A stretch of DNA of 20,282 nucleotides, taken from a virus. The notes under the pieces were generated by a model. That model was not told the DNA's origin, ran no database searches, and saw only the letters and a program-made list of their open reading frames with translations. Position 1 is the stretch's first letter. The number at the start of each line of letters is the position of its first letter. Positions 6,452 through 20,282 of this stretch are shown here, one piece after another. The translations under genes and the position numbers were made by a program. The stretch lies in the IMG/VR virus record IMGVR_UViG_3300031787_001042, positions 1 to 20,282 of that record. One strand, 5' to 3'.

Positions 6452-9400
6452 TTATCTGTTTGTAATTGAATTAAATAATTCCAAAGCTTCGGTAACAATA
6501 GTTACATAATTAATTGTTAAATTAGAGTTATTCGTCTCAGAAACTGATATTGATTCACTAACATTACTCTTATTCCAATTCAATGAAATAAAGTCTGAAA
6601 TACTTTCAGGAGTATCACTTGTAGTTACAATTCTTGACGCCCATCTAGCAACTAAAAAGTCGACTGATTTTCTTACATTAGAAAAACTTGCCATTGGTAT
6701 TGATGTACTACTACACCAAAACTTTTTATCATCACCAAAATAACTTGAGCTTCCGCCCCAATATTGATTTAAAGTTATTTTACCATAATTATTTTCCCAA
6801 CTATTAAATTTTTGGAATGCTCCACTGTTATTAAAGTTACCACTTTGTATATAAAAAGTTGCAAAAATAATCTTTTGTAGTAATACATCTGAAGTTGAAT
6901 TTGTGATATTATTAACCATAATCTCATAAGATAAACTTGTAGATTTTGGATTATCACTTGGGCTATAATCATATTCACTTGAAAGTAAATCAATACAACT
7001 TTGTGTTACTTGATTACTAGCGACATTGGTTGTTTGAATACTATTTTCAATATTACTTGTTTGAGCATTTTGATTAATTCCTGTATTAGGTGCCGACTCA
7101 CTCACATCAGATTTTTTAACTTTCTCTAAAATACCTTCTAATAAATTTGTTTTAATACTTTGTAAGTATTCATCTAATTGTGGTAAAGAATATATAGGTT
7201 GTCTTTGACCTGTAACTGTAGTTGAGAAATTACCAGGTACTATAGTATGTCTAACCCCTGTAATCATATAAGGTCCACTAAACATTGGTACATACCTTAA
7301 ATTAAAGTACATTGTTGGTTGAATCATAGCGTTACCAAGCATATCTATACTACAAGCATAACTTCTATTTTTATATAAGTTATATAATGAAAGATTTTGA
7401 GTTGCTCCACCTCGATTACCAGCCTGATTAGCCATTTCATTTAAAATAGCTAAACTTTCCGCAGTTGATAGTCCATTATTTTGAGATACACTGAAACCTT
7501 TAAATATTGTTTGATTTTGAGTACCTATATCAACATTAAAACCAACTACTCTATTAGATTTATCCCAATCATTTTTACCTATTTGATTTTCAATTAAAGG
7601 ATTATCCTTTGTTAAATCAAACGCATCATTTTTATATCTAAAATCAACACTTTTAATATCTAAATATTCACTTAATTTTCCACCGTAAAAACAAACCATT
7701 TTTGTTGATGAATTTCGATAATCAACATTCAAAAAACTACCGAATAAACTATTAGCAAAATCGTTAGTTCCCTCAAATTTAGGTATAGGATTTTTTGTAG
7801 CATTTTGAACATTATAAAAGTTCATATAAGCAGGTACATTCATAACAACAAAGTGGTTATGTGACAATATTTCATTTACCAAATATAACATATTACTTTT
7901 AACATTCATATCTGATAATTGATTTTTCAATTCGTAAACATCAACTAAAACTTTACTACCAATATCCCTTGAAGCCCTATCTAAAATTAAAACATCTTCA
8001 AATAATGTTTTACTTTTAAAATCTGTCCCTGAAATCCATTTGTCGTTTGTAGCTTTAAAAGATTCCCACAATTCAACTTTAGTTTGTGGTCCTTGTAACC
8101 TTGAATTAATTTTTTGACTTTGAATTGTAATATTTGGTAAATCAACTCTTAATCTTATCAATAAATTATTTAGTGATTTATTAAGAAAGTTTTCAATAAC
8201 AAGTAAATAATTTGTCATGACTTCAAAAAACTTTTCTTTACCTATTTTATTATTCGGATTGTTTGTAACAGGATAATTAGTAAACGCATCAATTTGTTGT
8301 GTTACAATATATTGTGGGGCTAACGGATTTGTAGATAATGAACCAAAAACTTTAATTATTGTATCATTTATAAGTTGTTGACACACATCATTCCAAGTTG
8401 ATGGTGGGAAATAAAAATTATGTATACCCTCATAAACTTGAATTCCATTTTCATCAAATAATAACGGCCATAAATTAGGTTCAGAATTTTCAAACCCCTT
8501 TTTAATTAAAATTTGATACCCACCTTCTAAATTAGCACTAGCAACTGTTAAAGTTACAAAAGAAGCAGGTGGTATTTGGGACTGGATTTGATTAGATTGT
8601 GTACCGTTAAGTTTTTGAGTTGCGTACATTTTAATTATAGGAGCGAACAACTTTATATTATTAACAGTAAATGCAATATTAAAATCAATAAAGAAATCTG
8701 TGATATATGAACCATTGTCACTATATGTAAGTTCGGGAATTTCAGAAAAACCAACATAAGTTTTTAAAGAAATCCACTCATTTGGATAATTAATCTGTGA
8801 TTGTAATAATGTAACGTTACCACCATTAACCGGAAGTGAATTAGGTGTTGTAGTTTGATAACTATCGGGGTCAAATTTATCAACTAAAGGTAAATTTGAA
8901 AATGAATAAAATAATTTTTTATCAAAACTTGACGGGTTTCCAAATTTAAAAATAACATCGTAATTTAAAAATTGTTTTAAATAATCATTAACACTTATAA
9001 ATTGTTTTTGTAAAATATTTTTTACTACTTCAGCACCAGTTTGTCCCGTTTGTTTTGGAACTTTCATCATTTGTCTCATCATGTACTGAAAATTTTTGAA
9101 CCCAAACTCTGTTTCTGTTTCAGAATTCGAAACCAAATTACTTTCATAATCATAAACTGTTTTAGAAAAATTTAAAAATTCTATTTCAAATCTGTCTAAA
9201 ACTTGTTTTTCAAAAATAGAGAACATTTCACTTATTTTTGTATACTCATATCCATTTTTATTAAATGAAAAATTAGATTGAATTGACGATTCAGTGAAAA
9301 TTGTTTTAAGATATTCTTCGGGTGAAGGTTTAACTATTTTTGAAATATCAAAATAACCATAATGAGGTAATGACCAAAAATTTCTAACTGAACCATCGTA

Positions 9401-12400
9401 AACCGAGTTATTAGATAAAACTTCATTGGTAATCTGACCATTAGAATTAAAGCACTCGTTTTTAGTTTGATTTATTAAACTACCCTCAGACGGAAACGGA
9501 TATTCATAATTTGAATCTAAAGTGTTAACTGATACTGACCAAGGTGTTATTTTCAAATCTCTCAAATCATCATTAGGGTCAAATCCTTCAGCTAAATTAA
9601 TAACCGCACTATCAACATAATTAAGTGTTAATCCTGAAGCAAATGCATTTTGAATATCAACTTCTGTGTATGTAAAATCAATGATATTAAATCCTTGGTA
9701 AAAAACGTTAAAATCATTAATAAGTTTTGGATAAAACCCAACATTTATAACTGTAGATGTTTCAGACCCAATAACTGTATTTTTTTCTAATATAATATCA
9801 ACCGCAGAACCATTTATATCTAATGAATAAATTTTTGTTGGGTCATTTGTGATTGGGTCGTAGTTAGCAACCTTATCAAAAGATGACCATGAAGAATTAA
9901 TAATATCAAAACCTGTTTCTGTATATTTTTTATAACGATGCCAAATTGAACCTATTTTAACCATCCAAGAGTAAGGTACCTTATGGATAGCCCCAAACTT
10001 TTTAAGTGTCGCAAAAATATAATCTAAATCAATTGTTGCCCCATTTTCATAAGTTTTATATTTTTCCCTTAATGTCGCAATTGGTAAACTATTAATAAAC
10101 AAATATGCCGCAGATACAAAAGGATATGTATCATAGTTTCTAAACTTTTCAACACCTTCTTGTATTGCATTTGTAAAAAATGGTGTGTTTAACATAGATG
10201 TAGTTTGAAGGGACGTTACGTTTCCACTATAGTCACCGTAAAGAACGTCTCCCTCAGTAACATTTTGATATTGGTAAACTCTTGAGTTATAAAAATCTGT
10301 TAGACTTGTTTCGTAACCTGTTGGTTCATTAATTGTCTCCATCAAAAAGTTACTAAACGGTTTTCCGATTGCATTAAACGTTGTTTGAGAAAAATTACAT
10401 ATAACTTTATTAAGAGTGTTAAAATTTAATACTTTTTTGGTATCAAAAGATAAATCAACATTTTGTATTGATTTACCATCAGCTAAGTTAGATTTTACCC
10501 AATTAAAATTAGTAAATGGATAAGTGTCAGTTAAATCAAATTTATTAGATTTAGTTGAATTAGAAATTAAATTTACAATATCGTTTTCATTAGTTAAAGA
10601 AACAATAGGTTGACTTTTTTTATCTGTTAAAACTTCTTGATTTATAAATTCAAATAATAAATTATCTGTTTGATTTTTTATATAACTAGTATTATAAATT
10701 CCCCTTATAAAATTTTGCCAACTTTGTCCTTGTCCTTCATTTGAGAATTGTTCTAAAATTGATAAAAAATTTGAGGAATTAAATCCGTAATTTTGAAGTT
10801 TTTGTATAAGAAACGGATTATCATTTGACAAACTATTTAATAAATTTATTTTTTCAGTATCGGAAATTAAACTTGTAATTTTATCCGATTCAGAAACATC
10901 ATAATTTATTCTATTAAGTTTTGAATATGATGAAACATAAAAAAGTCTTTCAAATATCTCAAATAAAAATTTAATCTCTTCTTTATTTGAATAAACATCA
11001 GTCCCTATAGGGAATTCAATAGCATTGAGTGTTAATCTTTTAACATCTTCGGTTTGATTAAATCCAGTTTCCGTATCAGTATCTGTTTGAGAAACTTTTT
11101 CAACATAAGCTCTTATAAATTCTTCAACAAATTCAATCTCAGGCCAATATTCATAAAGATAACCTTGTGTTTGTTCAACAACATCACTTTCACCAGGATA
11201 CCTAATCTCATATTTTTCTCTATTATCATTTGAAGTTGTTGCAACAATATATTGAGGCCATGGATAAATTGGAGTATCCTCACCAAGACCGTCATTTAAA
11301 TTATCACTACTAGGTTTATCTCCTAAAATAGCATTTTTTCTAATTGTATTATTATTTAACTCCCAAGCTTTAGTATGAACATCATCTAATAATCTCAAAA
11401 AAGCTTCACCACTAGCAAAAATAACCGCTAAAACATTTCTAATATTAGGAACAAATCCAATACCTTTACTTTTATCTTGTAATAATTCAGAAAGAGCAAA
11501 AGTTAATTCTTTTTGTATTTCTTCTTTGTAAGACTGAGCTAATTTGGAAATATTATTAGTTTTTTCAATAAAAGATTTAGTTCCTTCAAAATAATAATAT
11601 GTAAATTGCGGTATTTTATTTCCTTCTGAAGTTTTTATATTTCCAGTATTAAAATTATTAGTATCATCTAATTGACTTTGTAGATTAACAGTATCCGCAG
11701 AATTTGGTTGTTTTCCACCGTTTCTTTGTATATAAGTTTCAGTTAAATCAACATCATTAGATTTTAAATCTATCACAAATGTATCAAGGTCAATATCAAC
11801 AGTAATTTGTGAAGATTTTGGAGATTTATTATTAATAACATAACTTCCGTTTTGTCCTAATGTAATATTACCATTTAATAAACCTTTTTTGTCATCACCA
11901 TATTTACTTATTAACTCTTTAAGTTCACTTAACGCATCTTGTTTTTGTTGTTCTGTTTGAAATTGTTTTTTAAATGGATAGATTTTAATTTTTGAATTTT
12001 TTAAAACGTAAAAATTTTCAACATCCATGTACTTATCAAACCAAGATTTACCGTTTTGATAATAATAAACTTCTTTTTGATATTCTTGTAAATTTTTAAC
12101 ATAACTCTCACAATTAGTCAATGGGTCTAAATTTTCTTTAGTTAAAGAATCTGTAATATTTTTAACAAAATTTTCTAATCTATTTCTTAACTGAGGAACA
12201 GTAATTTCAGGAAAATCTTCAGGAATTAATCCTTTAGATTTATATTCACTATAAAGTTCTTTTACTTTTTCATAACCTCTTTCAACTACACTATTATCAA
12301 CTTTTTTAAACTGTGATGGACCTTCACTTTTAGGTTCAATTCTTAACGTTGATTTATACATGTGTGGAGCGGCTAAAAGTCCAGCTAAACTTATCTCAGT

Positions 12401-13114
12401 TAATATTGTATATTTGTATGTGTAAAATTTTAATCTAATTGTAAAGTTACCAGTTAAACTATTAAAATCAGAAGTAAAACTTTGTAACATTAACGGTAAT
12501 CTTAACGCTTTACCATAATATCCTTTAATTGTTAAATTAAACAAAGGGTATGGGAGATTGAAAAAACACCCGTATGGTGAGCTATCACCACCTTCAAATA
12601 AAGCCTTTCCCTTAACGTCCTCTAAAGTAATATCAATTACAGGCATGAAAGACATGTCCGTATTAATCCCTATTTGTACGATACCTAAAAGACCATTATC
12701 AACACTTTGTTCTTTACCTTCTGAATATGTTGACTGTCTATAGAAATAATCATCATTTTTAGATGGGTTTTTTATACTTTCGACTTTAGGTTGATTAACA
12801 CCTAATCCCTTTAAAGAATTTAAACCTGTTATTTCATTAGTATAAGAATTATCTAAAAAAGTTTTACCACCAGGTTTTAAAAAGTTAACTTTTGCAATTG
12901 AAATTGTTTGAATATCACTATTGTTACCTGCACCGACAGCTAATTTAGTTCTAGGTAAAATATCACACTCAAGATTTGCGTACATAACCAAATCTTCCAC
13001 TTTAACATGTCTTTCTTTTACTTTACCGTCAATGTCAACGATTTTGTTTGGGTCAACTACTATAATATTATTATAATCATAATCGACAAAAATATTTTCA
13101 GAGTTACCTACCAT
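6452..13114 (-). CDS. Giant baseplate hub-like tail protein (2220 aa)
   Basis: This is probably the central baseplate hub, linking the tail tube to the puncturing device. Residues 157-240 read like the hub beta-barrel of T4 gp27/Mu gp44-type proteins: MPVIDITLEDVKGKALFE, then SPYGCFFNLPYPLFNLTIKG, then LTGNFTIRLKFYTYKYTILTE. A second hub-like segment near 1915-1998 has MYFNLRYVPMFSGPYMITGV, then RHTIVPGNFSTTVTG, the usual ending of the hub fold. The middle 1600 residues are rich in Asn, Ser and Thr and match nothing I know. After a polar linker, the last 137 residues (2084-2220) contain YIQSGNF, FNSWENNYGKI and SVDFLVARW, which faintly recall cell-wall glucosaminidases; this is weak. T4 gp27 is only about 391 residues, so this protein is several times larger. 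The ATG lies inside the LysM gene (11-bp overlap), implying coupled translation and joint assembly. No frameshift is seen. Confidence 0.8.
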   Translation of the reverse strand: MVGNSENIFVDYDYNNIIVVDPNKIVDIDGKVKERHVKVEDLVMYANLECDILPRTKLAVGAGNNSDIQTISIAKVNFLKPGGKTFLDNSYTNEITGLNSLKGLGVNQPKVESIKNPSKNDDYFYRQSTYSEGKEQSVDNGLLGIVQIGINTDMSFMPVIDITLEDVKGKALFEGGDSSPYGCFFNLPYPLFNLTIKGYYGKALRLPLMLQSFTSDFNSLTGNFTIRLKFYTYKYTILTEISLAGLLAAPHMYKSTLRIEPKSEGPSQFKKVDNSVVERGYEKVKELYSEYKSKGLIPEDFPEITVPQLRNRLENFVKNITDSLTKENLDPLTNCESYVKNLQEYQKEVYYYQNGKSWFDKYMDVENFYVLKNSKIKIYPFKKQFQTEQQKQDALSELKELISKYGDDKKGLLNGNITLGQNGSYVINNKSPKSSQITVDIDLDTFVIDLKSNDVDLTETYIQRNGGKQPNSADTVNLQSQLDDTNNFNTGNIKTSEGNKIPQFTYYYFEGTKSFIEKTNNISKLAQSYKEEIQKELTFALSELLQDKSKGIGFVPNIRNVLAVIFASGEAFLRLLDDVHTKAWELNNNTIRKNAILGDKPSSDNLNDGLGEDTPIYPWPQYIVATTSNDNREKYEIRYPGESDVVEQTQGYLYEYWPEIEFVEEFIRAYVEKVSQTDTDTETGFNQTEDVKRLTLNAIEFPIGTDVYSNKEEIKFLFEIFERLFYVSSYSKLNRINYDVSESDKITSLISDTEKINLLNSLSNDNPFLIQKLQNYGFNSSNFLSILEQFSNEGQGQSWQNFIRGIYNTSYIKNQTDNLLFEFINQEVLTDKKSQPIVSLTNENDIVNLISNSTKSNKFDLTDTYPFTNFNWVKSNLADGKSIQNVDLSFDTKKVLNFNTLNKVICNFSQTTFNAIGKPFSNFLMETINEPTGYETSLTDFYNSRVYQYQNVTEGDVLYGDYSGNVTSLQTTSMLNTPFFTNAIQEGVEKFRNYDTYPFVSAAYLFINSLPIATLREKYKTYENGATIDLDYIFATLKKFGAIHKVPYSWMVKIGSIWHRYKKYTETGFDIINSSWSSFDKVANYDPITNDPTKIYSLDINGSAVDIILEKNTVIGSETSTVINVGFYPKLINDFNVFYQGFNIIDFTYTEVDIQNAFASGLTLNYVDSAVINLAEGFDPNDDLRDLKITPWSVSVNTLDSNYEYPFPSEGSLINQTKNECFNSNGQITNEVLSNNSVYDGSVRNFWSLPHYGYFDISKIVKPSPEEYLKTIFTESSIQSNFSFNKNGYEYTKISEMFSIFEKQVLDRFEIEFLNFSKTVYDYESNLVSNSETETEFGFKNFQYMMRQMMKVPKQTGQTGAEVVKNILQKQFISVNDYLKQFLNYDVIFKFGNPSSFDKKLFYSFSNLPLVDKFDPDSYQTTTPNSLPVNGGNVTLLQSQINYPNEWISLKTYVGFSEIPELTYSDNGSYITDFFIDFNIAFTVNNIKLFAPIIKMYATQKLNGTQSNQIQSQIPPASFVTLTVASANLEGGYQILIKKGFENSEPNLWPLLFDENGIQVYEGIHNFYFPPSTWNDVCQQLINDTIIKVFGSLSTNPLAPQYIVTQQIDAFTNYPVTNNPNNKIGKEKFFEVMTNYLLVIENFLNKSLNNLLIRLRVDLPNITIQSQKINSRLQGPQTKVELWESFKATNDKWISGTDFKSKTLFEDVLILDRASRDIGSKVLVDVYELKNQLSDMNVKSNMLYLVNEILSHNHFVVMNVPAYMNFYNVQNATKNPIPKFEGTNDFANSLFGSFLNVDYRNSSTKMVCFYGGKLSEYLDIKSVDFRYKNDAFDLTKDNPLIENQIGKNDWDKSNRVVGFNVDIGTQNQTIFKGFSVSQNNGLSTAESLAILNEMANQAGNRGGATQNLSLYNLYKNRSYACSIDMLGNAMIQPTMYFNLRYVPMFSGPYMITGVRHTIVPGNFSTTVTGQRQPIYSLPQLDEYLQSIKTNLLEGILEKVKKSDVSESAPNTGINQNAQTSNIENSIQTTNVASNQVTQSCIDLLSSEYDYSPSDNPKSTSLSYEIMVNNITNSTSDVLLQKIIFATFYIQSGNFNNSGAFQKFNSWENNYGKITLNQYWGGSSSYFGDDKKFWCSSTSIPMASFSNVRKSVDFLVARWASRIVTTSDTPESISDFISLNWNKSNVSESISVSETNNSNLTINYVTIVTEALELFNSITNR

Positions 13115-13427
13115 AATAAAAGAAGTGATTATCTAATGCTGATTTATAATCTTGTAAAGAAGTTATTAAAGGAAATGGAATAGTCAATATCGCACCATCA
13201 GGTATATTCCATTCTTGTCCACCAAAATTAGGATTTGCCATCATAATTAACCATCCAAATGTCGGTGAATTATAATATTGTTGCGAAACTTTATCTAATC
13301 TGGATTGATTAACTTTATATATAAATCTTTTATCGGTAGTTTTTGATGGTAAAGTAATATATGGTACAACAGTTTGTTTACCATCAATTGAAAAATTGTT
13401 ATATCTATTATAATACTGAAATGCCAT
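13104..13427 (-). CDS. LysM-domain baseplate protein, T4 gp53-like / tail protein X-like
   Basis: This small baseplate protein probably helps fix the hub to the wedges. It has 107 residues. Residues 38-85 form a LysM-like unit: YKVNQSRLDKVSQQYYNSPT, then FGWLIMMANPNF, and finally WNIPDGAILTIPFP. The same layout is known in T4 gp53 and in P2 gpX-type tail proteins. The N-terminal 37 residues are a Tyr/Asn-rich strand region, and the C-terminus is helical. T4 gp53 is about 196 residues, so only the core is present. It starts 2 bp after the stop of the 1691-residue gene and overlaps the hub gene by 11 bp. In T4, gene 53 also lies directly before a hub gene (gene 5), which supports the assignment. 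Confidence 0.82.
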   Translation of the reverse strand: MAFQYYNRYNNFSIDGKQTVVPYITLPSKTTDKRFIYKVNQSRLDKVSQQYYNSPTFGWLIMMANPNFGGQEWNIPDGAILTIPFPLITSLQDYKSALDNHFFYYGR

Positions 13428-13429
13428 AA

Positions 13430-16400
13430 TTAATTATTAAATTTTACTTTTCCTAAATAAGTTGATGTGTCATTATTTGTATTCTCAGATTTATAAAGAT
13501 TTTGTATTTCCGTCTTTTGTTGTTCCGTTCCTCCAACAGTGGTATATGAGAATTTTCGAGTTTTTCCAGCCGGAAACATTTTAACATCTAAACCATCTTT
13601 ATATTCAATATAATCATTATCTCCCTTAAAGTCTTTAAATAAATCATCACCCTTTTCAACTTCTTTTTTATAATCTCTAGCTAAATCGTTAGTTATATTT
13701 TTAAATTTATTTTGTAAATTATATGGTTCATCAACACTTGTTAATGTGTCACTTATAATTGACGAAATAAAATTTTCTTTAGTATTTGAGTTACTTAATA
13801 TTCTTCCTATAATCATATAGAATGATTTATACGTAATATCATCAGTAAAATAATCACCTAACAAAAATATGTCACCAACACTTGGGTAATCATTTGTTAT
13901 TATATTTTGGTTAACACAAAAATCATAAAATTCATCAATTGTTTGTCCAAAATCAAAATAATCAGAATAAAATTCTTCATACGTATTTGACACTTGAGAT
14001 GAACTTTGACTCACATTATCACCATCTAAACCTGATAATGTATAAACATTAGCCGTTCCAACCGAATTAATTTTACCATCAGTCAGATTATCAATAATAT
14101 TTAGTTTTTGAATAAATCTTACAAATGTTTGTTGGAAACTAGACATATCCTGAATAATTAAAGTTAAATCATTATTCATAACATTTTGAAGTTCTTTAAC
14201 ATAATTCACCATGTTTATTCTTACTTGTCTTAAATCACTTTCAAAAAAGTTAAAATCATTAACTAACTTATCCATAATTGGATTTGTATCATTTTCAATA
14301 TCTTCAATTACTTTATCAAATAAATTTTTAACCGATTGTTCAATTTGATATGGTACACCATATATTCTACAAGGTACTGAATCACCATTAGATTTTACAT
14401 CACCATTAATATAATATCTGTCTTGATTAATCATTTGAACAATTCCGTAATTGTATTTATCATTAATTTCTTGGAGTTTATTTGGTATTGTTTCAAAATA
14501 TGATTTAGAAGACAATAATAAATTATCCATAATTTTTTGATAAGAAGTTTCACCAGACGAACCACCTTCAATAGGTACTGTTGTTATAATTTCACCAATA
14601 ATTGACCCACCTTCATTTTGTTGTTGTGGTGAAAATCCAGTATTTGATATATTAGTTGTTATTTCAGGTGTAAGTCCTAAAAGTTGAGCCAATTCTTTAT
14701 CTATAGCAGTAGTATCTTCAGTTGATGTTGCTCTTTCATCGTAAATTTCAGTGTTAGCATAATAGTTGAAAGATAATGCATTTTGAAGTTCTTCAACGGG
14801 TTTTGCTATACCCATTCCCCCAATAATATCAAAACTAAGTGTAACCTTAGCAATCATTGGTTGAATTCCTATACCTTCAGGATTTAAATCAAAATTTTCA
14901 TACTGAAATTGTAAGTTTTTAGGAATAATTTTTGTGTTAAAAAAGTCCCCAATTCTTAAAACTAATACAGGTGGAGCCCCAAATGATGTATTAATAGAGT
15001 CATTAATTCTTGGTTTTCCATCCGAACCTATTATTGGTATTGTCTCACCCGGTCTTAAACACTGATTTAAAAAAGTCAGTCTTGAGTTAAGACCTTCAGG
15101 TGTCATTGAGTGAAAAGCAGGATTAAAGTATCTTATTTTTTCTCTTATTGAATCATAAACAAATGGAACATTTTCTTTTATTACTTCAAAATAATCACAT
15201 TCAGTTAAAAGATTTCTCAAAATTCTTTTCCCTAAATTTTCTTTTAATTTTTGTACAATTGTTTTAGTTGATTTAGGAGTAGGTGTTTTAAGTGGAATTT
15301 TTATTGTTGTAATTTCAGGAACATCTGGGTTAGGAATAGTTTCTTGTTCAATTAATTCTATTGTAGGGGTAGGTGTTTGAATAAGACTTTCAATATTAAT
15401 TTTTGAAATTTTTACTCTTCTACAAGCCATCGCATCAACTGCATATATTTGTGAATTACTTGTAACACCATCACTACCACTTATATCTGTATTACAATTC
15501 ACTTCTCTACCTGTTGACCCATCAGCCATCTTTGGTATAGCAATCGTCTCAATTTCTCCTTTAGCCGCTTTATTTACTATTTTAAATGAACCATCTTCAA
15601 AAAATGGTAATAACTTTCCATTATCAAATGTTTTAAAGAATTTTTCTACGGAGTCGATTCTTCTTACAGACAAATTTTTATTATAATTAAAAGTTGCGGT
15701 CGCTGAGGCTGAACCAACCATTTCTATTGAAATTTTTGCTAATCCGTTACTTAAAATTTCGTAAGCTTCATCTATGAAATTTTTATCATCTGATGATGCC
15801 TTTTTATATGATGGAATTATTACTGTATTATAAAAATCATTAATTTGTTTTTGATTTTCACAAAACTCAACATTATTTTTACAAAATCCTTCATTTATAT
15901 TAAAAGTATTATTTGATGTTATAATAGACGAATCAATAAAATTTTGATTAGTATATGAATCATAGGTATCTTGATACGATACCGAACTTATTACTTTGTT
16001 TGTGTTAGGGTCAGGAATATCATTAAAAAAATAAAACCCTAAATCTTCATACGTAGTCTTAAAACTATCTATTAAAGAACTATTATTAACTCCTCCGCCT
16101 GACTCAGTACCAAGATTAGGAATTGGTTCAGTTCCGGAACCGGCACTACCATCTGTATTTGGTTCTGCAGGTATTTCCAAAACTATCTCTTCGTATTCTT
16201 CTTTTGTTAAGTTTGGTTTATTTAAAATTTCTTGATAAGTGTATAAATCACTAGTTGGGATAGTGTTATATTTTTTAGCTAATTCATAGATATCAAATTT
16301 AACACATCCAGCAAAAAAAGAATCCAAAATAGAATTTATTTTTTCACTACTTTTACCTTTTAATTGTTGTTCAACAATAACATTTAGTACTGACGGACTA

Positions 16401-18505
16401 TCCACAATTATTTTCCAACTCAAATTACCTGTTCTATTTGTATCCTTATAAGTGTAAATTGGTTCAGGTCTACCTAAAAATGATGTTGGTTGCCAGTTAG
16501 CAGTAGATGAATCACTATATGTAAGTTCATAAGGTGGAAACCACATTACTCTACCACCATTAGGTCCTTTTTCACATGTCGGTAAATCATCATAAGTATA
16601 TCCAGGTCTACTTGATGTTCTCCAAGCTAAGTTTTCTAATGAAAACATATATTTTTTAGCATAACCTCCTGTACCTGTTTTTGCATCATCTGCAATTATA
16701 TTAGTCGAACCAGGATTTTTTGTTGGACTTATATTTAAATTAAATGTACTATCTAATACTGAATGTGAGAATCTTCTACCCTGAGTTGTAATACCATCAA
16801 CTTTTTGTAAATCACGATAAACTAAATATGGGGTATCTTTAGTGAAAATTCTACAATACTCAATACCATTCTCATCACCAGTTGTATTATCTACATATGA
16901 TAAAACTTTAGAACCTTTTGTAATTTCTTTATAACCGTCATTAAAAACTTTACTAACTTGATTAATAGCATTTCCAACATGTTTAAGTCTACTAGTACCT
17001 TGAACATTATCTGCAGATTCTACTAATCTTTGGGTATTATCTAAAATAGAATTACCTTTAAAAGTTAAATTAGTTGATTGACCTCTTGTATAGTTTGAAG
17101 ATACTAAATTAAAATCTTCATCAATTGAACCAATTGCACCTCCAGGTCCAACATGATATCCCGCATTATCTTGGAATTTAGGTGAAACCCACGTAAATCC
17201 ACCATCTAATGAACCTCCGTTTGAATATGGGACTTGGGTAAATGTAAAATTTAAATTTTCTTGATTTCCTTCAAATAAAATACCTAATTCTGACGGTCCG
17301 TAAACAGGTGATTTAACTTGTTGTCCAAAAACATTGACAGGTACTTGGTTTGGCGGTGATGTTATTGATGATGGTTCAGATGTTTTATTACCAACATAAT
17401 AACCACCTATCAAAGTTCCATTATCAGGATTAATTATTTCAATGGCTAAATTTACTATACCAGAAGCGATACCTAAAATACCTCCAAAATTTCTATCATA
17501 AGGTGGTTGATACCTATTGTAATCAATATTACTAAAAAGTACTGACCTTTGTCCATTACCCGTATTTGCTAAAAATATCTCAGATGGATTTCTATTAATA
17601 TTAAGAATCGGTCCTAAAAATCCACCTGTTAATTGATTAATAGTATTTAACGCTAAAGATGTTTGTTGGTTTTGAACACCACTATTCTCATCAAAATAAT
17701 CACCAGGAATAGGTGAAACAGGCCAATAAGCCGATGATAATCGAGTAATTAAATCTACAGTTCTAAGAATAGGGTTTTCAGGTACTGTAATTCTCCAATT
17801 TCTATAAACCAAAGGTTGTTGACCAGTTACTAATAAACTAATTTCAAATGGGTCTTGTAAAGATTCTAAATTTACTTGACCAACAGTATTTTGAAAAATT
17901 TCCGCCCCAATTCTTTGTCCAAATGCAAATCTTAAAGATTCCGCACCAATACGAGCAATAAAAGAATCTTGTGATAAAGGTCCGTTGTTACCATCAGGAT
18001 TTTCTGAGGTTAAAATTTCATATGGAGTGTAATTTGACGGTAAAAAACTAGGTGGTTGCCAATACGGAGAATATATTTTATTATTAACCTGAACAGTATC
18101 CAAAAAAAACATATCTTGGAAACCTCCATTAGGACCATATTTATTTTCAATATATTGAGCATCAATATTGAATTCATTAATTAAATCTAAAGCGGTCTGA
18201 TTTGGGTTATAAGGTCCTTGATTTGAATTAACAGGTAATGGAGGTCCATTATAAGTAATTGTTGTATCAAACCCACCTTCAGGTCCAAATTCATTCAAAG
18301 GATATAATTGATTTGCAAATGGGTCATCCGCAATCAAATTATTTGGGGAATCAATAACAGATGAATCTGTTAATGTTATTTCGTAAGATATATTATTTAC
18401 AGGTGGTGTCCAAACTCCCTCTACGTTATAAGGAGCTAAGTTCCTGGCTAACAGTGAATTCCTAAAAGATGAGGTTGATGCGAATGATAAACTACTTTCG
18501 GACAT
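13430..18505 (-). CDS. Large baseplate/tail protein with embedded OmpA-like peptidoglycan-binding domain (1691 aa)
   Basis: This is a structural protein of the tail tip or tube-baseplate junction, by context and internal motifs. The N-terminal third is Pro/Asn/Gly-rich with repeated GP-x-GGF turns (FGPEGGF, YGPNGGF). A conserved-looking block follows at about 615-735 (AKKYMFSLENLAWRTSSRPG, GPNGGRVMWFPPYELTYSD, FLGRPEPIYTYKDTNRTG). An OmpA-like domain spans about 822-1038: GFYFFNDIPDPN at 823-834, a helix, then GSASATATFNYNKNLSVRRI (931-950), and AMACRRVKISKINI at the end. The next block (about 1173-1230) has LVLRIGDFFNTKIIP, then LNPEGIGIQPMIAKVTLSF, as seen in tail proteins of related phages. 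The C-terminal part (1300-1560) is mostly helical and probably coiled. It lies between the tape measure and LysM genes. The ATG at 18503-18505 follows a TATTTAT motif by 14 nt. The exact T4 counterpart is uncertain (a gp48/gp54-like tube initiator is possible). Confidence 0.8.
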   Translation of the reverse strand: MSESSLSFASTSSFRNSLLARNLAPYNVEGVWTPPVNNISYEITLTDSSVIDSPNNLIADDPFANQLYPLNEFGPEGGFDTTITYNGPPLPVNSNQGPYNPNQTALDLINEFNIDAQYIENKYGPNGGFQDMFFLDTVQVNNKIYSPYWQPPSFLPSNYTPYEILTSENPDGNNGPLSQDSFIARIGAESLRFAFGQRIGAEIFQNTVGQVNLESLQDPFEISLLVTGQQPLVYRNWRITVPENPILRTVDLITRLSSAYWPVSPIPGDYFDENSGVQNQQTSLALNTINQLTGGFLGPILNINRNPSEIFLANTGNGQRSVLFSNIDYNRYQPPYDRNFGGILGIASGIVNLAIEIINPDNGTLIGGYYVGNKTSEPSSITSPPNQVPVNVFGQQVKSPVYGPSELGILFEGNQENLNFTFTQVPYSNGGSLDGGFTWVSPKFQDNAGYHVGPGGAIGSIDEDFNLVSSNYTRGQSTNLTFKGNSILDNTQRLVESADNVQGTSRLKHVGNAINQVSKVFNDGYKEITKGSKVLSYVDNTTGDENGIEYCRIFTKDTPYLVYRDLQKVDGITTQGRRFSHSVLDSTFNLNISPTKNPGSTNIIADDAKTGTGGYAKKYMFSLENLAWRTSSRPGYTYDDLPTCEKGPNGGRVMWFPPYELTYSDSSTANWQPTSFLGRPEPIYTYKDTNRTGNLSWKIIVDSPSVLNVIVEQQLKGKSSEKINSILDSFFAGCVKFDIYELAKKYNTIPTSDLYTYQEILNKPNLTKEEYEEIVLEIPAEPNTDGSAGSGTEPIPNLGTESGGGVNNSSLIDSFKTTYEDLGFYFFNDIPDPNTNKVISSVSYQDTYDSYTNQNFIDSSIITSNNTFNINEGFCKNNVEFCENQKQINDFYNTVIIPSYKKASSDDKNFIDEAYEILSNGLAKISIEMVGSASATATFNYNKNLSVRRIDSVEKFFKTFDNGKLLPFFEDGSFKIVNKAAKGEIETIAIPKMADGSTGREVNCNTDISGSDGVTSNSQIYAVDAMACRRVKISKINIESLIQTPTPTIELIEQETIPNPDVPEITTIKIPLKTPTPKSTKTIVQKLKENLGKRILRNLLTECDYFEVIKENVPFVYDSIREKIRYFNPAFHSMTPEGLNSRLTFLNQCLRPGETIPIIGSDGKPRINDSINTSFGAPPVLVLRIGDFFNTKIIPKNLQFQYENFDLNPEGIGIQPMIAKVTLSFDIIGGMGIAKPVEELQNALSFNYYANTEIYDERATSTEDTTAIDKELAQLLGLTPEITTNISNTGFSPQQQNEGGSIIGEIITTVPIEGGSSGETSYQKIMDNLLLSSKSYFETIPNKLQEINDKYNYGIVQMINQDRYYINGDVKSNGDSVPCRIYGVPYQIEQSVKNLFDKVIEDIENDTNPIMDKLVNDFNFFESDLRQVRINMVNYVKELQNVMNNDLTLIIQDMSSFQQTFVRFIQKLNIIDNLTDGKINSVGTANVYTLSGLDGDNVSQSSSQVSNTYEEFYSDYFDFGQTIDEFYDFCVNQNIITNDYPSVGDIFLLGDYFTDDITYKSFYMIIGRILSNSNTKENFISSIISDTLTSVDEPYNLQNKFKNITNDLARDYKKEVEKGDDLFKDFKGDNDYIEYKDGLDVKMFPAGKTRKFSYTTVGGTEQQKTEIQNLYKSENTNNDTSTYLGKVKFNN

Positions 18506-18535: not shown

Positions 18536-20282
18536 TTATTTTTTCTTATTACGTGTTGTTTGAAAATTTGTATTTGGTGAAGGTAATCTTCCGCCAGGAC
18601 TTAATAAACCATTTGCAGTAAGAACTCCTTCAATACTTTTAGTTATTTCTTGTACGAATAAAGAGTCATTAAACTGTGTCTCATTCATTCCATTTGGAGC
18701 TGAAATATTTAAATTAATCGTATGTATTTGTTCTGATGTTGAATTTTTATTAGTTTCTATTGTGTTTTCCCCTAATCTTGTGCCTCCAGCAACAAGAAAA
18801 TCTTCATCATAAGTTTGTAAAATAAAATCTTTCGGTTTTACAGTAATAGTTTCATTTTTACTTTCTACTGTTTGATTATCTGTTAAATTTTTAGATTCTT
18901 CTATTAATTTTTCATATCCAGGAACTTTTTGTAAAGATTGTCCTACTAATTTAACTAAACCGTTTGAACTTTCTGTTAAATTTGATAAACTTGTCGCGGC
19001 ATTATCTATAGATGTTAAAAAAGTTTCCGCTCCTTTTCCAGAAATTTTAGTTATAACTTTACCCATAGCATCTCCTAGGTCCGAAAGACCTCCATCACCT
19101 GATGCTATTTTATTAATAGCGGTACTTAAATCAGACGCTGATTCATCAAACATCACCCTCAATTGTTTAGTACTTGCAACAGTTTCTGTAGGTATAATTT
19201 CAGCCATACCTTTTATAAAATTTTTACCAACACTTAACAAATCTGTAGAAATAGTTGAACCAGCAAGTGCCAATGGTATAATATTAGTTACACGGTTTAA
19301 AGAGGCATTTATACTACCTAAAGTATCCAATTGTTTTTCAGCAAACTCCTCCATTGTTTTAGGTCTTTCTTTTTCTTTTTGTGCTAAAAAACTTAATTGT
19401 TCTTGATTTAAGTTATCTACCGCTTCAGTTACTGTTTTACCGTCTTTATCAGTAAATGTTATATTATATGTTCCATCTTTTCCTTTTTCAGCTAAATTAG
19501 CAATTAATTTTCTGTCATCATCATTTGCAAAATCACTCGGGAATTTAATTCTTTGTAATTTATCATCTAATTCAACACTAGCTAAAGCCATTTTAGTTAA
19601 TGTTTCATATGGTATTGAGGTTGCTTCTGAAATCTCTCTTAATTGACGTTTAGCTCCTTTTGCAATTTCAAAATTACCCGCTTCATTAAGTTTGACAAAT
19701 GATTTTGTCATTTCTACAACTTGATTAGTTAATTCAGCAGGGTCATTTTGAGATAAATCTAAGAGTGTCAGTGGGTCTAATAAACTACTTTGAGTTACCC
19801 CTAATCTTTGTAGAGCCGCCGCCATATTTATGGCCCCCTCAGGGTTAAATACTTTTTCCGCGAAGCTAAACATATCCTTCATATTAACTCTCATTGAAAC
19901 TGTTTGAGCTGCCATTTCAGCCAAACCGTCAATTCCTCCTTCAAAGTTATATTTATTTAATGACTCAAGATTTGCAACAACAACAGATGAAACCGCTTGG
20001 GCGTTTACTCCTAAACTTTTTGCCTTATCCATTACCCCCAACATTTGGTCTCCTACTTGACCCATAGAAATACCTATGTTTTTAAAATTATCAGATAACG
20101 TTTGAGCATTTACACCAGTTACTTTTTGTGTCGCAATAAAATCTGATATAATATCAGAACTTACAATTACATTCCTACCTAATGTTTGCATTAACGTAGT
20201 TTGAGTATCAGTAATATCTTTCCAACTACCACCAATTTTAGCAACTGAAACATAAGCATCAGTTAAACTTGATTTAATAGCA
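18536..20282 (-). CDS. Tail tape measure protein, C-terminal part (5' end beyond window)
   Basis: This protein sets tail length and is ejected with the DNA. The frame is open to the right edge (residues AIKSSLTDAYVSVAKIGG before the first in-window Met at 20189-20191), so that Met is not the true start; 581 residues are visible. Most of it is helical. A segment NPEGAINMAAALQRLGVTQS, then LLDPLTLLDLSQNDPAELTN, recalls a motif I associate with tape measure proteins of large tailed phages. A mildly hydrophobic stretch (VTNIIPLALAGSTISTDLL) could enter the membrane. The C-terminus is a polar, Pro-rich tail ending in a run of lysines. Its position upstream of the baseplate genes matches the usual order (T4: 29-48-54). 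The assignment rests on composition, motif and position. Confidence 0.82.
   Translation of the reverse strand, partial: AIKSSLTDAYVSVAKIGGSWKDITDTQTTLMQTLGRNVIVSSDIISDFIATQKVTGVNAQTLSDNFKNIGISMGQVGDQMLGVMDKAKSLGVNAQAVSSVVVANLESLNKYNFEGGIDGLAEMAAQTVSMRVNMKDMFSFAEKVFNPEGAINMAAALQRLGVTQSSLLDPLTLLDLSQNDPAELTNQVVEMTKSFVKLNEAGNFEIAKGAKRQLREISEATSIPYETLTKMALASVELDDKLQRIKFPSDFANDDDRKLIANLAEKGKDGTYNITFTDKDGKTVTEAVDNLNQEQLSFLAQKEKERPKTMEEFAEKQLDTLGSINASLNRVTNIIPLALAGSTISTDLLSVGKNFIKGMAEIIPTETVASTKQLRVMFDESASDLSTAINKIASGDGGLSDLGDAMGKVITKISGKGAETFLTSIDNAATSLSNLTESSNGLVKLVGQSLQKVPGYEKLIEESKNLTDNQTVESKNETITVKPKDFILQTYDEDFLVAGGTRLGENTIETNKNSTSEQIHTINLNISAPNGMNETQFNDSLFVQEITKSIEGVLTANGLLSPGGRLPSPNTNFQTTRNKKK

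Follow-up and report, generated by a model that had tools for sequence, protein, structure and literature searches.

Gene neighbourhood of the window

The window, that is the whole stretch of DNA analysed here, was an IMG/VR virus fragment of 20,282 bases. All window features described below lay on the minus strand, and their order on that strand was the end of a probable tape-measure protein, a 1691-residue protein, a 107-residue wedge protein and proteins of 2220, 227 and 282 residues, followed by a RecA-type recombinase, a 5'-3' exonuclease, a 150-residue protein, a DnaB-type helicase and a probable ribonucleotide reductase gene. Judging by its position, the 282-residue product was a candidate ssDNA-binding protein. 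Flavobacterium phage immuto was the only cultured phage that matched the RecA gene of the window, and this match was the source of the link between the two; the gene order of immuto was nearly the same.

The C-terminal part of the probable tape-measure protein (18536..20281) was assigned from its position, which was that of immuto gp037, annotated as a tail tape measure; a family-library search gave no match of its own. Next to it was the ORF of the 1691-residue protein (13430..18505), which had relatives over its full length in IMG/VR (576 matches) and which we identified from structural models as a tail-tube initiator with an inserted OmpA-like domain. The adjoining 107-residue baseplate wedge protein (13104..13427) belonged to the T4 gp53-type family (phrog_7145, E 8.9e-7), and the neighbouring immuto gp034 matched the same family with an E-value of 1.1e-10. 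The 2220-residue protein (6452..13114) was considered a tail protein on the basis of gene order, being the positional counterpart of immuto gp033, with which its sequence similarity was not significant. This large protein was without any family match, and gp033, a 938-residue protein annotated as a carboxypeptidase, had a VanY carboxypeptidase domain at its end.

Thus, the initiator gene sat between the tape measure and the gp53-type wedge gene, within a contractile-tail module. A tail-sheath family was found in 14 of the 16 larger relatives, and the tail is therefore contractile. In the relatives L116-L123, the sheath match was located in ORFs of 1112-1307 residues, which was large for a sheath protein. 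The start region was A-rich and had no Shine-Dalgarno site. Together with the immuto link and the Bacteroidota subtype of the OmpA-like domain described below, this indirectly suggested a Bacteroidota host.

The OmpA-like domain and the protein around it

The OmpA-like domain occupied residues 809-1044 (15374..16081). A preliminary description of the window had recognized it by three strings, all of which were located where it had put them: YFFNDIPDPN at about residues 825-834, GSASATATFNYNKNLSVRRI at 931-950 and MACRRVKISKI at 1026-1036. Its claim of an OmpA-like fold was borne out as well, and the structure prediction and profile comparison that it had suggested returned this fold. Namely, in an alignment of residues 809-1044 and 54 relatives (55 members in total), 50 of the 55 homologues matched PF00691 (OmpA) at E-values of up to 0.1 (best 3.3e-6), and most of the aligned members matched NCBIfam models for Pal, YiaD or PorE. 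The family profile retrieved OmpA/Pal/PorE/YfiB-type chains from the PDB (best E 6.8e-5). AlphaFold modelled the domain with a pLDDT of 96.2 and a pTM of 0.92, and VIA structure alignment of this model gave OmpA/Pal/MotB-type rows, the best with a Z of 8.7 over 118 residues; the Z values of 8.0-8.7 against Pal/OmpA chains corresponded to the beta-alpha fold of the OmpA C-terminal domain.

It could be argued that the N-x2-LS-x2-R string was coincidental and that the segment had another fold. Single sequences mostly scored 20.8-21.7 bits, below the Pfam cut-off of 27.2 bits, and the window sequence reached 13.1 bits, so that the PF00691 match was a property of the family and not of the window sequence alone. 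Foldseek E-values for the domain were also modest, the best being only 0.025, although such a weak score is in keeping with the roughly 70 additional residues that follow the first strand of the domain. However, the 50 homologues, the PDB profile search, the AlphaFold model, the structure alignment and the cellular Ser-type family described below all agreed on OmpA. We therefore rejected chance likeness as having almost no probability, and confidently predict from the models that residues from about 809 to 1044 form an OmpA/Pal fold. The low single-sequence scores also mean that routine annotation would miss the domain.

Neither the domain nor the whole protein had a tblastn match among 50,697 phage records, and the bacterial Ser-type domain likewise had none in the same records. 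Searches of the open-licence literature brought up no earlier description of a phage tube or baseplate protein that carries an OmpA domain. An OmpA fold in a phage product, as in the window, was also indicated by a weak match (E 0.3) to R9ZWT8 of Cellulophaga phage phi17:2, which differed in having 327 residues and no tube-initiator assignment.

Variable linkers were located on both sides of the domain. The one before it (residues 761-808, 16082..16225) had low conservation and a pLDDT below 50 at about residues 778-806, and the Pro/Thr-rich one after it (residues 1045-1080, 15266..15373) had a column identity of 0.30 and a pLDDT below 50. We modelled residues 481-1267 with 87 sequences, the insert being residues 328-560 of this model, and outside the insert the confidence was low (pLDDT 65). 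In VIA, the best 24 rows for the model were all baseplate chains of phages or injection systems (Z 9.4-11.8), spanning model residues from about 120 to about 755 on either side of the insert; next came rows matching the insert to Pal and OmpA, with Z of 8-9.3. Among the 24 rows were 6j0n_b, 6rao_G and T4 5iv5_BE (Z 9.8), which we take to be Pvc7, Afp7 and T4 gp48. Since the rows spanned both sides of the insert, the two halves (residues about 600-711, 16373..16708, and about 1133-1250, 14756..15109) would make one tube-initiator domain.

Thus, the model identifies the protein around the domain as a tail-tube initiator with a tube-type fold, as in Pvc7/Afp7 and the T4 baseplate. The preliminary description had called it a phage baseplate protein, which we correct accordingly, and had rightly placed the domain between two conserved tail blocks, which in our model fold together as the tube initiator. 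The flanking halves resembled contractile tube initiators in fold (Z 9.8-11.8 for the Pvc7, Afp7 and T4 chains), and a gp53-type wedge gene adjoined the initiator gene. On the other hand, the OmpA domain was absent from these chains in the aligned range, and about 420 residues were inserted in the window protein. Neither the whole protein nor the C-side block obtained an informative match in the family libraries, and no usable PDB match came from profile searches with the flanking blocks. With this assignment, the tube-initiator gene receives a name in a family that is nameless in family libraries and has more than 570 IMG/VR matches.

Age of the insertion and bacterial relatives of the domain

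Homologues with and without the segment were compared, as had been suggested. Immuto gp035 (P0002) had the same gene position but only 716 residues and no OmpA domain, and its residues 542-609 and 629-691 matched the first and the second half of the window initiator, respectively, in the same order. The insert-free profile of the window family aligned with the immuto family over 138 columns with a probability of 60.2 and a score of 43.4; the maximum among 30 column-shuffled control profiles was a probability of 6.4 and a score of 30.4. When Mel-JY01, LR756508 and two further relatives were added to the immuto profile, the probability was 95.1 (P 3e-8, 151 columns). The C-side block alone gave no significant match to the immuto family. 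In immuto, Microcystis phage Mel-JY01 and the 484-kb phage LR756508, the initiator halves were joined directly, and no convincing OmpA signal was found in these three phages or in the two further relatives. The immuto-type initiators were at L348 5001-5552 (Mel-JY01) and L349 5001-5651 (LR756508), and in LR756508 a match to the window wedge gene came directly after the initiator.

Since the initiators of immuto and its relatives were colinear with that of the window and lacked the insert, the OmpA segment was derived in the window's family. Within this family, all 133 of the 133 relatives with both flanks carried the segment, and the profile match was clear in 131. A recent or window-specific insertion was thereby ruled out. 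On these alignments, the segment is an old insertion within the phage family; the insertion between tail blocks proposed in the preliminary description thus stood with respect to distant homologues, without being recent or specific to the window. In two homologous ORFs, L188 and L199 (residues about 796-990), the OmpA segment was decayed with its length kept. L188 lacked the Asn and the RRV end and L199 lacked most of the motif, and both cysteines described below were kept in both.

The only confirmed match in a scan of bacterial genomes was a Flavobacteriales protein in which PD40 and DUF1573 parts surrounded the OmpA domain, resembling PorE/CHU_0125 proteins. Its domain started with TFYFHNDVPDPRS and read GFASPLAKTDYNVKLTKRR. 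This Ser-type domain was present in 140 of 199 Flavobacteriales genomes; across the phylum, strong matches to the phage profile were found in 7 of 395 genomes and were therefore rare. One such TPR-PD40-OmpA-DUF1573 protein, L085 (6-1976, plus strand), had a Ser-type OmpA domain with the usual Asp absent. Proteins of this kind shared with the phage domain the YFxNDxPDP start, the extra helices that follow strand 1, G-x-[AT]-S instead of G-H-x-D, and N-x2-L-x3-R. They differed in being bacterial envelope-type proteins, unlike the virion protein, and the sequences shown lacked the two cysteines of the phage domain.

The subtype was recognizable over the whole domain, from the YFxNDxPDP start through the extra helices to the Ser at the Asp position. 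With hhalign, the phage profile aligned to the bacterial Ser-type profile end to end over 195 columns (P 2e-24), whereas only the core aligned (74 columns, P 5e-11) with ordinary OmpA domains from these Flavobacteriales genomes. In the tree, the phage and Ser-type domains formed one side of a branch with 100/100 support, with the ordinary OmpA domains on the other, and a single phage clade was not rejected (p-AU 0.30). The hhalign and tree results agreed with the earlier proposal of a Bacteroidota subtype that starts with YFxNDxPDP and lacks D-x2-G. By sequence comparison, the nearest relatives are thus a Bacteroidota OmpA variant with this start and the Ser, found in envelope-type proteins. 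Because the OmpA part was placed as in PorE-like proteins, it is likelier that the ancestor of the phage family acquired the domain from a bacterial envelope protein, a direction suggested by the bacterial architecture and not by the tree. Moreover, these relatives point to an unstudied class of Ser-type OmpA domains in Bacteroidota.

The conserved pocket and a possible role at the cell wall

The phage domain had the fold of OmpA/Pal/MotB domains (PF00691), their pocket N, L and R, and their RRV end, but it differed from them in carrying Ser for the pocket Asp and about 70 extra residues. The pocket motif GSASATATFNYNKNLSVRR (residues 931-949, 15659..15715) was delimited by conservation and by the spacing of the TagL contacts. 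In TagL, Asp486, Asn494, Leu497 and Arg501 contact diaminopimelate, and changes of Asn494, Leu497 and Arg501 abolish wall binding (PMC8253398); in A. baumannii OmpA, an Asp-Arg pair binds diaminopimelate (PMC5974059). Among 134 phage sequences, S934, N942 and R949 were present in all and L945 in 133, while the mean column identity was 53%. The diaminopimelate pocket thus retained its Asn, Leu and Arg, and its Asp was replaced by Ser in 134 of 134. We know of no Ser-type OmpA domain that binds peptidoglycan. Since the bacterial sister group also had the Ser, along with the same other pocket residues, the missing Asp was a feature of the subtype rather than phage decay. It nevertheless calls for caution about the predicted peptidoglycan binding, and we classified the domain as an OmpA-like fold and not as a proven peptidoglycan binder.

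The C-terminal CRRV strand (residues 1028-1031, 15413..15424) was the counterpart of the OmpA RRV end, with the C and the first R invariant and the second R and the V at 99% in the 134 sequences. Both C1028 (codon 15422-15424) and C1004 (codon 15494-15496) were invariant in all 134 phage domains and missing from the bacterial Ser-type sequences shown. It is possible that they form a phage-specific disulphide or metal site.

As far as we are aware, little is known of what happens between the cell wall and the tube tip of contractile phages once the outer membrane has been crossed. Our preferred reading, to which we give somewhat less than an even chance, is that the Ser-subtype OmpA domain on its flexible linkers in the tube initiator grips peptidoglycan during injection. 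At the junction of baseplate and tube, T4 has six copies of gp48 and six of gp54 (PMC3004832). The copy number, the place in the virion, the exposure and the ligand proposed here are inferred: by analogy with these T4 proteins, the initiator would form a six-copy ring at the junction by the piercing hub, and six OmpA-like domains on flexible linkers would surround the tube tip. Sheath contraction would take the tip through the outer membrane and might bring this ring into the periplasm, where the domains could bind the stem peptides of peptidoglycan and keep the tip at the wall during DNA entry. With slightly less confidence, we suggest that six tethered domains in the tube-start ring may grip the peptidoglycan of the target cell, as the phage equivalent of the wall anchors in type VI secretion. 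TagL, such an anchor, has an OmpA-like domain on a contractile machine (PMC8253398) and aligned with the phage domain with a VIA Z of 7.6, but it belongs to the attacking cell as an accessory bound to the membrane, whereas the phage domain is predicted to sit inside the tube initiator.

Against a wall anchor stand the Asp-to-Ser change in every member and the low confidence of the flank model (pLDDT 65). The loss of the Asp would equally suit a domain that came from a peptidoglycan binder but has given up this ligand and now clamps the initiator ring onto proteins of the wedge or sheath, and we take the LysM-like part of T4 gp53 to be such a case of baseplate co-option. The presence of the segment in every relative, as expected for a structural part, its retention with a decayed motif in two lineages and the survival of the two cysteines even in these copies agree with a clamp. 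L188 and L199 also indicate that, whatever the domain binds, binding is not essential for all members, since they lost parts of the motif and kept a fold-like segment. On the other hand, the pocket was invariant in a domain conserved at 53% elsewhere, flexible and variable linkers on both sides suit a tethered binder more than a rigid clamp, and homologous initiators exist without the domain. We therefore regard a purely structural role as rather unlikely.

Alternatively, the domain could copy the host Ser-type domain and bind the partner of that domain or another periplasmic ligand instead of the wall. The closest relatives were indeed of one specific host protein type, and the Ser variant was common to the phage and host domains, so the ligand may be specific to the subtype. 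However, the conserved surface was the diaminopimelate pocket of the OmpA family, and the host protein has no known partner, which makes such mimicry distinctly improbable in our estimate. Returning to the peptidoglycan grip, a dedicated wall-type domain on a tube initiator would make the wall step of injection testable with the purified domain, and the decay in L188 and L199 provides a natural test of the importance of the pocket.
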